Made by a program: the position numbers and the translations under genes
Notes under the pieces: generated by a model
Seen by the model: only the letters and a program-made list of their open reading frames with translations
Told to the model about the DNA's origin: nothing
The model's database searches: none
Part shown: positions 30,289 to 37,104 of the stretch, piece by piece
Layout: every line of letters begins with the position of its first letter
Position numbering within the stretch: position 1 is the first letter of the stretch
Assembly: GCA_016870365.1 (NCBI GenBank)
Contig: VGBW01000010.1
Span: 1 to 42,820 of the forward strand
DNA length: 42,820 nt
From: Actinomycetota bacterium
GTDB taxonomy: Bacteria > Actinomycetota > Actinomycetes > Nanopelagicales > Nanopelagicaceae
Reading direction: 5' to 3'

Positions 30289-31116
30289 TTGGCCGATAGG
30301 AATTTTTTATCATGGATCGGATTTAAAGGCGAGGAAAGTGAAGCCAGTAAGAAGAATCCATCAGCAGGATCAGCTTCGCTAGATCGCATCCGTGAACTTG
30401 AATCACAATTGAATGATCTTCGCTCGCGCCGTGACATCACCGGATTAAGCAAGGAAGAATTTGAAATTCTAGCCACCGAGACTGCGATGTCCCTCATTCG
30501 CGCCGCTCAACAGAGGGAGGTCAAAGCGAATGAGAGGGAGGTCAAAGCGAATGCAAGTGCCGAGAAGTTACTAAGTGAGAGCAAAAAGGTAGCTAGCTCC
30601 ACGTTAGAACAAGCAGAGGCAAGAGCTGAGTCACTTCTCTCCCATGCTGAGTCGCGTGGGCGTGAATATATAAAAGCAGCAGAAAGTGATGCCTCAGATA
30701 TCTTGGCAGAGGCGAATTCAAGAGCTGAAGAGTTGTTAGGTAGCAAGAAGCGCGAAGGTGAGGCAATTACAACTAGCGCTCGGAGAGAGGCAGATCACCT
30801 AATCCTTGAAGCCAGCACCGAGGTCTCAGAATACAGAAACTGGCTAGAGGGATTCATTTCAGAGGCAGAGCGCATTTATCAAATTCAAAGCCAATCACTT
30901 GATTCTGCTGAGAGTGCCATCTCCCAATCACGCCGGAGGTTAGAGAGGGCTTTCAATCGACTAGCAGAGCTACAAGAGCAAGTTGTCTCGGCTATCTCTT
31001 CAGATAGCACTCCCAGTGCTGATGCCAAGGAGGCCTCAAGAATTAATGCGGCAGGAGATGATAAGGCAGCTAAGAAGAGTTCAGGTAAGAAGAGCGCAAC
31101 TAAGAAACGTCGGTGA
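30289..31116 (+). CDS. coiled-coil protein with Lys-rich C-terminal tail (DivIVA-like appearance)
   Basis: 275 aa from a TTG with GAGGAG 10 nt upstream; the start is moderately supported. After a variable 30-residue head, residues about 30-235 are almost continuous coiled coil (EAEARAESLLSHAESRG, ARREADHLILEASTEVSEY), including a perfect seven-residue duplication REVKANE. The Trp-containing RNWLEGFISEAERIYQ near residue 187 resembles the late DivIVA/Wag31-type segments. The final 25 residues are Lys/Ser-rich (AKKSSGKKSATKKRR), like nucleoid-protein tails. No membrane segment. Its stop overlaps the start of the acyltransferase gene (TGATG), so the two are co-translated. A role in polar growth or envelope organisation is inference. 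Confidence 0.65.
   Translation: MADRNFLSWIGFKGEESEASKKNPSAGSASLDRIRELESQLNDLRSRRDITGLSKEEFEILATETAMSLIRAAQQREVKANEREVKANASAEKLLSESKKVASSTLEQAEARAESLLSHAESRGREYIKAAESDASDILAEANSRAEELLGSKKREGEAITTSARREADHLILEASTEVSEYRNWLEGFISEAERIYQIQSQSLDSAESAISQSRRRLERAFNRLAELQEQVVSAISSDSTPSADAKEASRINAAGDDKAAKKSSGKKSATKKRR
30513..30554 (+). repeat. 21-bp tandem duplication
   Basis: Two copies of a 21-bp unit (gagggaggtcaaagcgaat plus 2) encode the repeated REVKANE heptad, so the coiled-coil phase is kept. Near identity suggests a recent duplication. Confidence 0.85.
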
Positions 31117-32864
31117 TGCCTTCTAGCAGTCGCTATATCCACTCAGTTGATGGCCTTAGGGCCGTCGCAGTTCTGGCCGTTCTGCTTTATCACTTAGGTA
31201 TTGATTGGATTCCAGGGGGTTTTCTGGGAGTTGATCTCTTCTTTGTTATCTCAGGATATGTAATAACTGGACTTATTCTTGACTCGATTGATAGATCTGG
31301 CACTCTTGATTTAAGGGCTTTCTACTTAAGTCGCATCAGGCGACTAGTTCCTGCGCTAGTTGCCATGATCGTCTTCACCCTTTTGTTTATCGGAGTCTAC
31401 GCCCCAGAGACTGTCAAGAGATTCATCGCCGATATTGGCTATGTCTTATCAGGTTCTATGAATTGGGCTCTGGTTTCAAGGCACCAGGATTACTTTGAAA
31501 GTATTGGCAGGCCACCCCTTCTACAACACACCTGGTCGCTAGCTGTTGAAGCCCAGTTCTATTTGATTTGGCCCTTAGTGCTGCTTCTCATCTTGAAGTA
31601 CTTCGGCAAGAAGCGCATTTCAATCATTTCTCTGGCTATCGCTATGGCATCAGGAATAGCTCTCCTTGCCTACTCAGTGCAGATTGACACTAAGGCATCA
31701 GCAATTAGCCATGTTTACTTTGGAACTGATACGCATTCCATTGGATTCTTTCTGAGCTCGGCTCTTGCTGTTAGCTGGAAACCAGCGAACCTGACTCGAG
31801 AGATCAGCAAAAGAGCCCAAAACTTTGTTGATCTGATTGGAGTCTTTGGCCTGCTGGGACTACTTGGCACTTTTCTATTCATTAACGAAAGTGATCCAAC
31901 GCTATATCGCATTGCCTTTCCACTATCTGCCATATTTGGTTGTGCCACTTTAATCTCCGTGGTCCATCCAGCATCAAGATTTGCGCCCATATTAAGCACC
32001 AAGGCTCTAATCTGGATAGGCGAGCGATCTTATGGAATCTATCTCTGGCATTGGATCGTCTTTCAACTAACCAGACCCTCTCTTGATCTAGTGGGCGATG
32101 ATTGGGCTCTCTATGCCCTAAGAACCTTGATCGTATTTGCCCTTGCCGATATCTCTCTGCGTTATGTCGAAATTCCAGTAAGACGTGGATACTTCGAACT
32201 CTGGTTCCGAGGAATGAAATATCGAACCAAGGCAGCGCGGATCAGACAGAAACTCTCAACCCTTGTAGCGGTAGTGGCCCTGCTTGGAGCAACAATTCTG
32301 GTGGCAAATGATGGGATAAGAAAAGCAGATGAAATTGCCGCTCAAGAAGAATTAGCGACTACCCCGCAAGAGCCAGTTGATCAAGTAATCACCAACCCTG
32401 GTAGCCCAGGGCTCTGGGTCACCGGAGACTCAGTCATTCTTGGAATTAGAAATGTCCTAGCTCAATTTGAGCGTATCGAGTTAATCAATGCCAGAGTCGG
32501 CAGACAAATCAATGAGTTAATTGAGGTGGCCAGAACCGATCGACAATTCGTTGGCTCATCCCCTGTGGTGCTAAACCTGGGCAACAACAATCGATTGGTA
32601 GAAAGAGATGTCTTGGCCCTTATGGAAGTTGTTAGGAACCAGCCAAAGATTATTGTGGTTAATACCGCTGTTCAAAAATCTTGGAAGAATGAGAATAATA
32701 CTCTGATTAGGAGTGTAATCTCTCGCTATCCCAATTCCACTTTGGTTGATTGGGATGCCATCTCAGCAAATCATCCTGAGTTCTTTGCCTCCGATGGGGT
32801 TCATCTAAATCCTCCCGGCGTAAACGCCTATGTCTCTGCAATCCTCGAAGTTCTACAGAAATAA
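31116..32864 (+). CDS. membrane acyltransferase-3 with C-terminal SGNH domain
   Basis: 582 aa from ATG 31116, overlapping the previous stop. The N-terminal two thirds is an OafA/YrhL-type acyltransferase-3 domain with about ten membrane helices, starting SVDGLRAVAVLAVLLYHLG (the His-containing first helix) and GGFLGVDLFFVISGYVI. The C-terminal third is a periplasm-facing SGNH hydrolase-like domain: GDSV near residue 436, NLGNNNR with the Asn/Gly block near 485, and DGVHLNPPG near 560 supplying Asp and His. Proteins of this fused type O-acetylate cell-surface glycans. The polymer modified here is unknown. A strong terminator follows. Confidence 0.88.
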   Translation: MPSSSRYIHSVDGLRAVAVLAVLLYHLGIDWIPGGFLGVDLFFVISGYVITGLILDSIDRSGTLDLRAFYLSRIRRLVPALVAMIVFTLLFIGVYAPETVKRFIADIGYVLSGSMNWALVSRHQDYFESIGRPPLLQHTWSLAVEAQFYLIWPLVLLLILKYFGKKRISIISLAIAMASGIALLAYSVQIDTKASAISHVYFGTDTHSIGFFLSSALAVSWKPANLTREISKRAQNFVDLIGVFGLLGLLGTFLFINESDPTLYRIAFPLSAIFGCATLISVVHPASRFAPILSTKALIWIGERSYGIYLWHWIVFQLTRPSLDLVGDDWALYALRTLIVFALADISLRYVEIPVRRGYFELWFRGMKYRTKAARIRQKLSTLVAVVALLGATILVANDGIRKADEIAAQEELATTPQEPVDQVITNPGSPGLWVTGDSVILGIRNVLAQFERIELINARVGRQINELIEVARTDRQFVGSSPVVLNLGNNNRLVERDVLALMEVVRNQPKIIVVNTAVQKSWKNENNTLIRSVISRYPNSTLVDWDAISANHPEFFASDGVHLNPPGVNAYVSAILEVLQK

Positions 32865-32866
32865 GA

Positions 32867-32894
32867 AACCGCTCCTAGAGTCTTAGGAGCGGTT
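32867..32894. terminator. bidirectional terminator hairpin
   Basis: AACCGCTCCTA and TAGGAGCGGTT form an 11-bp perfect stem with a 6-nt loop between two convergent genes. The minus strand continues TTTCTTATTTC, a good U-tract for the H1-like gene; the plus strand continues CTTCAATG, weaker. Confidence 0.85.
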
Positions 32895-32910
32895 CTTCAA
32901 TGTAATTCAC

Positions 32911-33771
32911 TTAGTTCTGATACTTGCCCTTTAGTGAGAACTTGGTGGCATCAACCTTGGTGCCATCTGAATAGACAGATTGCAGCAAGAACTGGGTTCC
33001 ACCCTCATCGCCTGCCAGTGCGATATCAAATGAGAGTTGATCTGCGCCTACTGTTGAAACATCAACAAAATCAATGGCGTCATAGGAAACAGAAATGGCA
33101 TAGCCAGTCAAACCATCAGTTGTCACGGGCGCTTTCCAGCGCAGCGTTACTCCACCTGAGGCATTGCGAATCGCTACAAAGCTCGTCGGAGCTTCATAAG
33201 CTGTAATTGCCGGTTCTTCGCTCTCACTCTCTGTTGGTTCAGCAGTTGGCTCCTCGGAAACTGTCTCAGTTGGAGTTGGCTTCGCCTCTTCATCACTTGA
33301 GGAGTTAGTGAGCGCAAAAATTGCTAGCAGCACAACACCTGCGATGACTAGAAAGGGAAGATTGTTTGACTTCTTCACCGGAGCGACAGGAGTTCCAGCC
33401 ATTGCGCTCCTTGCTGGAGCAGGAGTTGATGTAATTGGAACTGCACCCTTTAAAGGAACCGGCGGAATTGCGATCTTTGAAAGATCGCTTCTTCTTAAAG
33501 GAACCGGCGGAATTGCGATCTTTGAAAGATCGCTTCTTCCACTAGCCTTCTTGGCGCTTCGCCTAGTAGAGCGCCTAGCTGCAGCTTTCTTTGCCGGGCG
33601 CTTTGCAGGGGACTTCCTACCGCGCCGCTTTGCTTTCTTAACGACTCTCTTCGTAGCTTTCTTTGCCGGGCGCTTTGCAGGGGACTTCCTACCGCGCCGC
33701 TTTGCTTTCTTTGCGACTCTCTTCGTAGCTTTCTTTGCCGGGCGCTTTGCAGAAGCTTTCTTCCTTGCCAC
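32911..33771 (-). CDS. histone-H1-like basic domain + transmembrane helix + extracellular Fn3-like domain
   Basis: 286 aa from GTG 33771, which has AAGGAG 8 nt upstream. Residues 2-78 are Lys/Arg/Ala/Pro-rich with nearly perfect 24-residue repeats (KRPAKKATKRV, KKAKRRGRKSP), like histone H1 or HupB/Lsr2-type tails. A 15-residue duplication of SDLSKIAIPPVPL follows (80-107). One membrane helix (PFLVIAGVVLLAIFAL, about 138-155) then leads to a Glu/Thr/Pro-rich acidic linker and an Fn3-like beta domain (APTSFVAIRNASGGVTLRWK, GLTGYAISVSYD). The positive-inside rule puts the basic part in the cytoplasm, where it could bind DNA, with the Fn3 domain outside. I know no named family with this order. 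Confidence 0.75.
   Translation of the reverse strand: MARKKASAKRPAKKATKRVAKKAKRRGRKSPAKRPAKKATKRVVKKAKRRGRKSPAKRPAKKAAARRSTRRSAKKASGRSDLSKIAIPPVPLRRSDLSKIAIPPVPLKGAVPITSTPAPARSAMAGTPVAPVKKSNNLPFLVIAGVVLLAIFALTNSSSDEEAKPTPTETVSEEPTAEPTESESEEPAITAYEAPTSFVAIRNASGGVTLRWKAPVTTDGLTGYAISVSYDAIDFVDVSTVGADQLSFDIALAGDEGGTQFLLQSVYSDGTKVDATKFSLKGKYQN
33452..33541 (-). repeat. 45-bp tandem repeat, two copies
   Basis: Two near-identical 45-bp units encode the duplicated RSDLSKIAIPPVPL segment (15 aa each). In frame, within the H1-like gene. Confidence 0.9.
33584..33757 (-). repeat. 72-bp tandem repeat, about 2.4 copies
   Basis: Units starting at 33591, 33663 and 33735 share long identical stretches (ttgccgggcgctttgca). 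They encode 24-residue Lys/Arg-rich repeats. A length multiple of three means copy-number changes keep the frame. Confidence 0.9.
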
Positions 33772-33885
33772 CACTATCACTCCTTCGCTCTAAAGCTTGG
33801 CGCACCTGCCCTTACGCAATCTAACTAACTAGAAGCGCGCCTTGCTGTTCCAAGCCTACCTGCGAGTGCGCACTTTTCACCACTA

Positions 33886-34494
33886 TCACAGGGAGAGAAA
33901 GGGAGAGATTCTTGGGGCTATTTGCGCCAGAGCTTTACCTCTATGGCTAATCGAATCCTTGATCTCTGGGCTCATCTGCGCAGTTGTGATACTAAAACCC
34001 TCTGGTTGAAAAATGGGGTCATAGCCAAAACCCTGATCACCGATGGGGCTTCGCCTTATCTGACCTACCAGCTCACCCCTGGCGATAAGGCTCTGGCCAT
34101 CTGGCCTGGTCAGTGCCAGCACTGCGACAAATGATGCTGTCCTGTTTTCTATCTGCTCCATCATCTTTAATACCTTGGCATTGTTTGCCGCATCATCGCC
34201 ATGAACTCCGCCATAACGGGCAGAGAAAACTCCAGGTTCGCCATCAAGAGCCTCTATGGATAACCCACTGTCATCGGCCAGAGTAGCAAGGCCCGTGAGC
34301 TGCGTGACCGTGCGCGCCTTTAAGAGGGCATTTTCTTCGAAGCTACTTCCTATCTCCTCAATATCTGCAATATCTAGATCAGTCATCGAGATAGGTGATA
34401 TCTCTGGAGCATGAATCTTCAACATCCGCTTCACTTCAACAAGTTTTCCTTGGTTTCTAGTAGCTAAGACCAGGGTTTTCTTATCTACCGACAT
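33886..34494 (-). CDS. rdgB: dITP/XTP pyrophosphatase (RdgB/HAM1)
   Basis: 202 aa. Hydrolyses non-canonical purine nucleotides to monophosphates, keeping them out of DNA and RNA. LATRNQGKLVEVKRML, TLADDSGLSIEALDGEPG and FGYDPIFQPEG are the family signatures, ending SHRGKALAQI. Lies 6 nt after rph; rph-rdgB is the usual order. Confidence 0.95.
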   Translation of the reverse strand: MSVDKKTLVLATRNQGKLVEVKRMLKIHAPEISPISMTDLDIADIEEIGSSFEENALLKARTVTQLTGLATLADDSGLSIEALDGEPGVFSARYGGVHGDDAANNAKVLKMMEQIENRTASFVAVLALTRPDGQSLIARGELVGQIRRSPIGDQGFGYDPIFQPEGFSITTAQMSPEIKDSISHRGKALAQIAPRISPFLSL

Positions 34495-34500
34495 TACGCT

Positions 34501-35232
34501 CTATCTTGCTAGCACTTGAGCTTGGAGCATCGCTATCTGCTTACAACCCTTTGCCCCAAGATCTAATAGTTGATCAAGAAGGGCTCTATCAAGGGGCTCG
34601 CCTTCTGCAGTTCCTTGAACTTCAATGTATTTGCCCTCGCCAGTGCAGACAATATTCATATCAGTCTGCGCTCGAACATCTTCTTCATAGCAAAGATCAA
34701 CAAGTGGAGCGCCATCAATAATTCCCACGCTCACTGCTGCCACAGAGCCAATCAGTGGAGATTTGCCAGTGATATGTCCCTGCTTCATCGCCCAGGAGAG
34801 CGCATCACTTAAGGCAACATATGCCCCAGTAATAGCTACCGTCCTAGTTCCCCCATCTGCTTGGAGCACATCACAATCTAGAACGATGGTGTTCTCACCC
34901 AGTGCTTGAAAATCGACAATTGCTCGCAATGACCTGCCAATTAGTCTTGATATCTCTTGAGTTCTGCCACCCAATTTTCCCTTAACGCTCTCTCGATCTG
35001 CTCGGCTATGGGTAGCCCGAGGCAACATGGCATATTCACTAGTCACCCAGCCCTTGCCACTTCCAGCTAACCAGCGGGGAACTCCGGGAGCGAAGGAGGC
35101 AACGCAGAGAACTCGGGTATTGCCGAAGGAAACCAAGACTGATCCTTCGGCGTTATTGAGCCAATTCCTCTCAAAAGTAATCGGCCGAAGTTGCTCCGCC
35201 CCCCTTGAATCACTACGTTTGACCTCTGTCAC
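34501..35232 (-). CDS. rph: ribonuclease PH
   Basis: 243 aa phosphorolytic 3'-5' exonuclease that trims tRNA 3' ends. [50 protein letters not shown] and [17 protein letters not shown] are characteristic. GTG start with GGAG 10 nt upstream. Middle gene of murI-rph-rdgB. Confidence 0.96.
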
Positions 35233-35255
35233 CTTAACAATCTCCGCTCATGTAT

Positions 35256-36059
35256 CTAGATCTGACCCTTAACAAAGTTAACTTCAGGGCCTAGGAAGCG
35301 TCTGGCTAAGTGGGTAAAGGTATCGGTGTCACCACTTGCAATGAATTGGTGACTTGGCGCCTTCTTATCACTTCTCAAGAGATTGTTTTCAACTAATACT
35401 CTATAGAGCTCTTTAGCTGTCTCTTCCGCACTTGAGACTAAGTTAACTTCACTGCCCATCACGTAGGAAATCACCCCAGTAAGGAGCGGGTAGTGGGTGC
35501 AACCTAAGACCAAAGTGTCAACTCCAGCGGCCTTTAGCGGAGCCAGGTACCGCGTTGCAACCTCTGTTACCTCATCTCCAGAGGTCATGCCGCTTTCAAC
35601 AAAGGAGACAAACTTTGGACAGGCAAGTGCGATTAGCTCAAAGTGAGGAGCTGCAGCAAAGGCGTCGTTATAGGCCCCAGAGTCAATGGTCGTTTGAGTA
35701 CCAATAACTCCTACCTTGCCATTCTTGCTGGCAGATACAGCCCGTCGAACAGCCGGTTGAATGACCTCTATTACCGGTATGGAGTAACGCTCTCTGGCAT
35801 CTCTTAGCATCGCAGCACTTGCGGTGTTGCAGGCAATAACAATGGCCTTAACCCCGGCATCCACTAAAGAGTCCATGATCTCAAGGGCGAAGGAGCGTAC
35901 TTGGGCTAGTGGCCGAGGGCCATAGGGACCTCGGGCGGTATCACCGAAGTAGATCAAGGTCTCGTTGGGCAATTGATCGATTATTGCTCTAGCCACAGTA
36001 AGGCCCCCAAGGCCAGAATCAAATAGGCCAATTGGCGCAGATCCATACTTATTGGCCAT
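35256..36059 (-). CDS. murI: glutamate racemase
   Basis: 267 aa from ATG 36059. Provides D-glutamate for peptidoglycan. [31 protein letters not shown], the first catalytic Cys in [12 protein letters not shown], and the second in [11 protein letters not shown] are all present. A 36-residue longer in-frame reading exists upstream but lacks any support; the TAGACT box 7 nt before 36059 decides the start. Confidence 0.96.
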
Positions 36060-36066
36060 AGCCGCA

Positions 36067-36072
36067 AGTCTA
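36067..36072 (-). promoter_or_regulatory. -10 box TAGACT, leaderless promoter of murI-rph-rdgB
   Basis: Minus-strand TAGACT ends 7 nt before the murI ATG. It also marks one edge of the 271-bp gene-free interval to actinorhodopsin. Confidence 0.5.
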
Positions 36073-36267
36073 AAGGTGCTCAACCAATAGGCCTTCTCCG
36101 AGCAGGCTATAGCGAAATCTGCCGAGAGCCATACCAAAGATGTCCGATTTGCCCTGAAAAAGAGCAAAGTCCTTAAGAATTACCGAATTACTGGGTTGAA
36201 ATTCTAGTGAGTACCCGGCACCCTTTCGCCTGATTGCGCCTGCCGAGGCTTCATATGGGTCTACGGG

Positions 36268-36277: not shown

Positions 36278-36330
36278 GCTCGGCTCTACCTGTGTCGAGC
36301 AATCCTAACTGCCCACGGAGGCTTATTGAA

Positions 36331-37104
36331 ATGCAACTAGACGCATCTCAGTGGAGCACGGTCTACAACATCCTCTCTTTTGGACTTGTATCCATGCTCG
36401 CAACAACCGTCTATACCCTTGTTTCACAGAACCGCGTTCTTCCTAAGTATCGCAACGCCCTGGTTCTTTCATCCATGGTTACCTTCATCGCTGCTTATCA
36501 CTACGTGAGAATCTTTGATTCTTTCAAGGATGCAACGAAAGAGGGGACATTTGAAGTAGTAACTGATAGCAACGCAAGTTCAGCGGCGTTTAATGAGGCA
36601 TACCGCTACGTTGACTGGATCCTTACAGTGCCGCTACTTCTTGTTGAACTAATCGCAGTATTGGCTCTTGCCAAAGAAGCAACTCGCTCGCTGCTAACAC
36701 GCCTCGTTCCTGCATCAGCAGCAATGATCGCACTAGGTTATCCAGGAGAAGTTTCTGCAGACCAGGGTGAGAAGATTATGTGGGGCGTTCTCTCCACCAT
36801 TCCATTCCTCTACATCCTCTATATTCTATTCATAGAGCTAGGTAAGTCCCTAGATCGTCAGCCTGAGGGAGTTGCAGCCACAGTTGGCCGCATCCGTCTC
36901 CTCCTCATCGCTACCTGGGGCGTTTACCCAATCTCCTACCTCCTTCCAATCATCGATGCAGATGGAGCAGCAAGCTCTGGTGCCTTCGTTGGGCGTCAAG
37001 TTGGTTACACCATCGCTGACATAGCATCTAAGTGCGTGTTCGGTCTAACAATCCTCAAGATCGCACGCATGAAGTCAATTGCCGAAGGAATGAAGGACGA
37101 TTAA
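36331..37104 (+). CDS. actR: actinorhodopsin (light-driven proton pump)
   Basis: 257 aa with seven transmembrane helices, a type-1 rhodopsin of the xanthorhodopsin-like/actinorhodopsin group. Helix C reads RYVDWILTVPLLLVEL: proton acceptor Asp95, Thr99 and donor Glu106 identify an outward proton pump, and Leu at 103, the proteorhodopsin-105 position, predicts green absorption. His57 in AAYHYVRIF matches the His that pairs with the acceptor in xanthorhodopsin. The retinal Schiff-base Lys is Lys234 in DIASKCVFG. Gly152 in IMWGVLS is a candidate for the gap that lets a carotenoid antenna bind (inference). CGGAGG lies 10 nt before ATG; a 13-residue longer GTG form is possible. A terminator follows. 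Confidence 0.96.
   Translation: MQLDASQWSTVYNILSFGLVSMLATTVYTLVSQNRVLPKYRNALVLSSMVTFIAAYHYVRIFDSFKDATKEGTFEVVTDSNASSAAFNEAYRYVDWILTVPLLLVELIAVLALAKEATRSLLTRLVPASAAMIALGYPGEVSADQGEKIMWGVLSTIPFLYILYILFIELGKSLDRQPEGVAATVGRIRLLLIATWGVYPISYLLPIIDADGAASSGAFVGRQVGYTIADIASKCVFGLTILKIARMKSIAEGMKDD

Follow-up and report, generated by a model that had tools for sequence, protein, structure and literature searches.

A membrane-anchored H1-like/Fn3 protein of the Nanopelagicaceae as a candidate nucleoid-to-envelope tether

Gene and parts of the H1-like/Fn3 protein

The window, which is the whole 42,820-nucleotide stretch of contig VGBW01000010.1 that was analysed, carries a gene for a membrane-anchored H1-like/Fn3 protein of 286 amino acids at 32911..33771. 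The gene lies on the minus strand, which the original prediction for this locus had not given, and runs from a GTG start codon at 33771 to a stop at 32911, with an AAGGAG ribosome-binding site 8 nt upstream. The domain order put forward in that prediction was confirmed in the sequence: a K/R/A/P tail, a duplicated SDLSK linker, one membrane helix, an acidic stalk and an Fn3-like domain. The H1-like tail, residues 1-78 (33538..33771, minus strand, as are all parts of this gene), is predicted to be cytoplasmic and is composed nearly exclusively of K, R, A, P, S, T, G and V. The PPVP-type SDLSKIAIPPVPL (SDLSK) linker occurs twice, at residues 80-110. The in-frame repeats of 72 and 45 bp that had been proposed were also found. 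The 72-bp unit is repeated in tandem within the tail (33583..33752; 2.4 copies, 97% matches), and the 45-bp tandem duplication, with the SDLSKIAIPPVPLRR/KG linker, has 2.0 copies at 100% (33450..33539), where the nearest relatives have a single copy. Both unit lengths are divisible by three. The single transmembrane helix, NLPFLVIAGVVLLAIFALT, spans residues 137-155 (33307..33363) with a mean hydropathy of 2.39, compared with 1.0 for the next best 19-residue window of the 286-residue protein, and a helix is also present in the structural model. The helix is followed by 131 residues, which comprise an acidic Ser/Thr/Glu/Pro stalk (residues 156-191, 33199..33306) and the Fn3 domain (residues 192-286, 32914..33198), both predicted to be outside. 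A terminator-like stem-loop of 12 pairs (32866..32895, minus strand) lies between this gene and a convergent acyltransferase gene, and is one of three such sites found in the region against 1.8 expected by chance.

An antisense reading frame, 33308-33793 on the plus strand, runs through the basic tail without a stop in the window, as it does in several relatives. It was ruled out as a real gene, since the conserved GTG, the ribosome-binding motif and the low dN/dS described below all belong to the minus frame. The open frame is probably an effect of codon composition.

The C-terminal domain is a member of the Fn3 superfamily by fold, as predicted with high confidence. AlphaFold2 modelled the domain with a pLDDT of ~97, and the best solved structural match was the Fn3 domain of Clostridium perfringens GH84C (PDB 2w1n; VIA-align Z 13.0), which superposed with an rmsd of 2.0 over 87 residues at 24% identity. 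A profile search of the PDB likewise returned Fn3 for this domain. Structure prediction and the PDB search support the Fn3-like fold that had been suggested from the letters, although the score with PF00041 (fn3) alone, scanned from the helix onward, was 14.1 bits and below the cut-off of 25. A weak fn3 match of this kind was seen in 24 of 39 family members. When the full-length window protein was searched, Pfam gave only a spurious sub-threshold match and NCBIfam nothing of use, and the H1-like family HC2 (PF07382) did not match it at E ≤ 1.

Distribution and conserved neighbours

A relative covering the helix to the end of the protein was found in 263 of the 296 genomes of the family, nearly always as a single copy, with a few of the weakest of these matches being other proteins. 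Among good-quality genomes the count was 103 of 108. The gene is a conserved core gene of the family, and this family-wide distribution rules out a recent or strain-specific origin. Genera g5 and g6, and g14 in the genomes checked, are without it, and several of these have other genes after rdgB. One of the weakest matches comes from G035, a 1.9-Mb genome of the same family, where a Fn3-type match at ~109508-109780 of contig C57 sits in an open frame of 16,932 amino acids (about 50 kb). It is a different protein and was rejected as an orthologue.

When 346 genomes of the class were searched with a profile of helix, stalk and Fn3 domain, no full-length relative appeared outside the family, and E < 1e-50 was reached solely within it. 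Partial matches in other genomes of the class were of two types, Fn3 domains belonging to large proteins and a helix with a Ser/Thr-rich stretch, and 20 of the best matches of the second type all lacked a K/A tail. A scan with the single window protein gave 25 loci, of which one was a short clostridial match and 24 were close relatives, labelled mostly as Nanopelagicaceae, Nanopelagicales, acI or plain actinobacterium. Two of the 24 are on contigs labelled Clavibacter sp. BS5, which is probably a mislabelling.

The order of tail, linker, helix, stalk and Fn3 domain was kept in all 90 locus copies inspected, which represent about 70 distinct genes because some genes were fetched twice. Wherever the start codon could be located, it was GTG and never ATG (87 of 87 loci), and a ribosome-binding-like motif preceded it every time. 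The invariant GTG suggests selection for a weak start. Within the genus, the dN/dS of the Fn3 part had a median of 0.07 over 67 usable pairs, a value that marks strong purifying selection. The conserved order, the GTG start and the low dN/dS together exclude a chance origin.

The gene is part of a conserved block. Upstream on the same strand lie rdgB (Ham1), rph and murI (33886..36167, minus strand), the conserved anchor of the block, and two plus-strand genes face it from the other side. One encodes a coiled-coil protein (30289..31116) with the N-terminal motif MADRNFLSWIGFKGE and a K/A-rich basic C-terminal tail, and is a candidate partner; the other encodes a membrane O-acyltransferase (31113..32864; Acyl_transf_3, 3.5e-31) whose best NCBIfam match is SucT. 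In the window, the first four bases of the acyltransferase gene are also the last four of the coiled-coil gene. The order murI-rph-rdgB, the H1-like/Fn3 gene and the facing acyltransferase and coiled-coil genes was found at 39 of 39 loci, so the two neighbours that the original prediction had only mentioned as possible associates do form a conserved block with it. Elsewhere in the window, a bacteriorhodopsin-like gene (36292-37104, plus strand; PF01036, 2.3e-40) lies between murI and DUF2017-clpS, a place that it occupies in some genera, while in others it is found elsewhere nearby.

The coiled-coil protein is highly conserved, with a MAEKxFLSWVGFKGE-type motif at its N-terminus and the K/A tail at its C-terminus. 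Its gene was present in 105 of the 112 genomes with at least 90% completeness. The seven others were five g5/g6 genomes that are also without the H1-like/Fn3 gene; G017, which has no H1-like/Fn3 match either; and G029, where the basic tail is cut by a contig end. The g6 genome G039 has only a fragment of the gene. None of the 148 other genomes of the phylum sample had the coiled-coil gene, and genomes without the block had acyltransferase paralogues of only 30-35% identity or none that was found. The three genes thus occur jointly as a lineage-specific block, which probably reflects one evolutionary event, and their co-occurrences cannot be counted as many independent events.

The coiled-coil protein was compared with DivIVA/Wag31, with which it shares a coiled coil. 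Its match to Wag31 was weak (1.1e-8, 35 bits) and far below the cut-off of 260 bits, the protein also matched other coiled coils, ATP synthase b among them, and neither NF050102 nor PF05103 exceeded its cut-off on it. The match is weak and composition-prone, and a reading of the protein as a DivIVA was not adopted. Canonical DivIVA/Wag31 was not found over the cut-off in any of 41 family genomes, in a search whose control gave a match over the cut-off in one of 14 control genomes. A replacement of DivIVA is not supported, as canonical DivIVA was likewise not found in the basal genomes G035 and G036. The Wag31-like match, taken with the lack of a DivIVA over the cut-off, is a lead only. The sole other DivIVA-like match in the window's genome is a coiled-coil gene at L094:1246-1722 (G000 contig C1, about 67 kb). 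It lies between coaD and the rpmF/rnc region, which we take to be the place of SepIVA in mycobacteria. The coiled-coil neighbour also resembles mycobacterial HbhA in joining a coiled coil to a C-terminal basic tail of the DNA-binding type (PMC10665949).

The basic tail and known proteins with similar tails

The charge of the protein is strongly asymmetric about the helix. In all 90 locus copies, the net charge was +24 to +61 on the N-terminal side and 0 to -17 on the C-terminal side. The first 55 residues held 20-29 lysines and arginines per copy, and aspartate and glutamate amounted to three residues in total over the 90 copies. Since the N-terminal side is positive and the C-terminal side neutral to negative, the positive-inside rule strongly predicts that the tail is inside and the Fn3 domain outside. 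Charge and hydropathy hence predict a cytoplasmic rather than an exported basic region in every copy, as had been anticipated.

The length before the helix ranged from 86 to 169 residues across the locus copies, in a sequence driven by repeats. The nearest relatives have 65-69 residues before PPVP and a single linker copy, compared with 87 residues in the window. The duplications in the window are thus recent, and the number of repeats does vary between species. The original prediction had spoken of a strain-variable length; what was observed is a change of in-frame units at the level of species.

The tail was next placed among the proteins of G237, a complete relative, with open reading frames from a simple longest-ORF caller. 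The N-terminal net charge of the orthologue, +44, was the highest of 245 single-helix open reading frames, the next being +16 (mean 0.09, sd 6.0), and a fixed K/A-tail criterion was passed by 11 of 1420 open reading frames, both denominators being approximate. The 11 include HU, topoisomerase I, sigma-70, a DksA-like zinc-finger protein, a phasin-like protein with an HC2-like tail and a fusion of an MFS transporter with thymidylate kinase. Two others were read as ribosomal L15 and L18, one was without an assignment, and the H1-like/Fn3 orthologue and its coiled-coil neighbour were also among them. From this composition, nucleic-acid proteins are the main bearers of this type of tail. The phasin-like protein has 121 amino acids (L172:8872-9234). 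The fusion (L137:12576-14741) carries its K/A-rich tail at the C-terminus and adjoins the topoisomerase I gene, whose product is likewise tailed.

Long K/P/A repeat tails are also found in the H1-like proteins AlgP, PhaF and HC1/HC2, which are not membrane proteins; PhaF is grouped with AlgP among them. PhaF is a phasin (PMC3574117), and for AlgP a role in linking polyphosphate granules with the chromosome has been suggested (PMC9239181). Lysine/alanine repeats are shared with HupB/HupS-type HU and actinobacterial topoisomerase I, both of which G237 possesses, but those proteins are soluble, have a folded domain of DNA-binding or enzymatic type and lack a membrane helix. Lysine repeats are reported to confer processivity on actinobacterial TopA (PMC7398561), and the HupB tail has been termed indispensable (PMC5676037).

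The closest analogue is Rv3852 of Mycobacterium tuberculosis (annotated Hns), a membrane-anchored DNA-binding protein with PAKK repeats (PMC8233713, PMC4433263). The window protein resembles it in the N-terminal region of basic K/A/P repeats, predicted to be cytoplasmic, and in the single transmembrane helix. The PAKK repeats bind DNA in vitro (PMC4433263), and Rv3852 is reported to be held at the membrane by its helix while on DNA and to place the coiled-coil polar scaffold Wag31, with which it works (PMC8233713, PMC4433263). This precedent is not airtight, because the work on the PAKK repeats itself called the physiological relevance of the DNA binding uncertain, and removing the gene did not mimic the effect of the compound being studied (PMC4433263). 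In contrast to the window protein, Rv3852 has 134 amino acids and ends just past the helix, with neither a stalk nor an outside domain, and it was published as confined to slow-growing mycobacteria, whereas the H1-like/Fn3 gene is family-wide and syntenic. No significant sequence relation was detected; a single BLASTP comparison gave E 0.11 over the low-complexity tail only. Common descent is, therefore, not supported and the analogy is a functional one. The original prediction had called the architecture undescribed. That held insofar as the protein falls outside every Pfam and NCBIfam family and no paper on it was found in the literature searched, but membrane-fixed basic repeats as such had already been published for Rv3852. 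Judged by sequence, the H1-like/Fn3 proteins are apparently an unrelated family that adds an outside domain to a known principle.

Putative function at the nucleoid-envelope interface

We propose, with a probability of roughly 0.55, that the protein is a single-pass N-in/C-out tether between the nucleoid and the envelope. The disordered lysine/arginine/alanine tail would lie at the inner face of the membrane and bind nucleic acid, as its type suggests. Its ligand would most likely be nucleoid DNA bound without sequence preference, as by the tails of HupB, topoisomerase I and Rv3852, the last of which is the precedent for choosing DNA. The stalk would take the Fn3 domain into the wall, where its ligand may be a polymer of the wall or a protein of the envelope. 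In this way the chromosome would be kept close to a site on the envelope, possibly with the participation of the co-conserved, basic-tailed coiled-coil protein. The charge asymmetry and single helix in all 90 copies, the kinds of protein with such tails in G237, the Rv3852 precedent, the family-wide distribution, the synteny at 39 of 39 loci, the purifying selection and the distribution of the coiled-coil gene favour this reading. Against it, K/R/A-rich tails can also bind RNA, polyphosphate or acidic lipids, and the co-distribution with the coiled-coil gene probably reflects one shared evolutionary event.

In an unlikely alternative, the ligand of the tail at the membrane would be RNA, ribosomes or polyphosphate instead of chromosomal DNA, and the protein would anchor translation or storage granules. 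K/A-rich stretches in G237 are also present on proteins read as ribosomal, and AlgP, another H1-like protein, is associated with polyphosphate granules, whose positioning requires the AlgP tail (PMC9239181), but several of the best-matched tails in G237 are on the DNA proteins HU, TopA and sigma-70. It is rather unlikely, too, that the protein is an envelope or division scaffold whose tail does no more than set the topology and attach to acidic lipids or to the coiled-coil neighbour, with the Fn3 domain acting alongside the acyltransferase in the assembly of wall or surface polymers. The conserved block with a coiled-coil gene and a SucT-like acyltransferase, the lack of DivIVA/Wag31 over the cut-off in 41 genomes and the action of Rv3852 on Wag31 placement (PMC8233713) agree with a scaffold. 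However, topology would call for a much shorter and less charged tail, as the gap between +44 and the +16 of the next single-helix protein in G237 illustrates, and the coiled-coil protein is also basic-tailed, which makes a contact from tail to tail unlikely.

The remaining explanations concern what the two sides of the membrane do. An outside domain and an inside tail of nucleic-acid type on one polypeptide could make a transmembrane sensor, in which a ligand on the Fn3 domain alters DNA binding by the tail and so transcription. This is very unlikely, as the inside part is without a recognised folded DNA-binding or enzymatic domain and the drift of tail length by gain and loss of repeats suits a tether better than a switch. 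Highly improbable is an inverted or released protein, with the tail outside on teichoic acids or environmental DNA, or with the helix serving as a cleaved signal peptide. HbhA, whose C-terminal domain binds DNA, was indeed characterised as an adhesin before its nucleoid role (PMC10665949), but the positive-inside rule is obeyed in every copy and no conserved A-x-A site was seen by eye after the helix. We also know of no signal peptide with a basic N-region of 86-169 residues.

The tether, as the preferred reading, could be part of something larger. It is conceivable, if doubtful, that these cells have a lineage-specific machine linking chromosome and wall, in which DNA would be held inside and a wall ligand outside by one protein, with a coiled-coil scaffold that is basic-tailed and a surface acyltransferase as its partners, in cells that gave no canonical DivIVA in the searches. 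The hosts are freshwater bacteria of very high abundance whose streamlined genomes measure about 0.7 to 2.2 Mb and, despite the streamlining, the H1-like/Fn3 gene and its neighbours have been kept in nearly all genomes searched. It is an open question how bacteria hold their chromosomes in relation to the envelope, and hardly any proteins are known that combine a DNA-type tail inside with a folded domain outside. With the H1-like/Fn3 protein, the one mycobacterial precedent, Rv3852, would gain a counterpart in a lineage that is apparently independent, and a core gene of such a build in bacteria that can be cultured would open the question of chromosome and envelope to testing.
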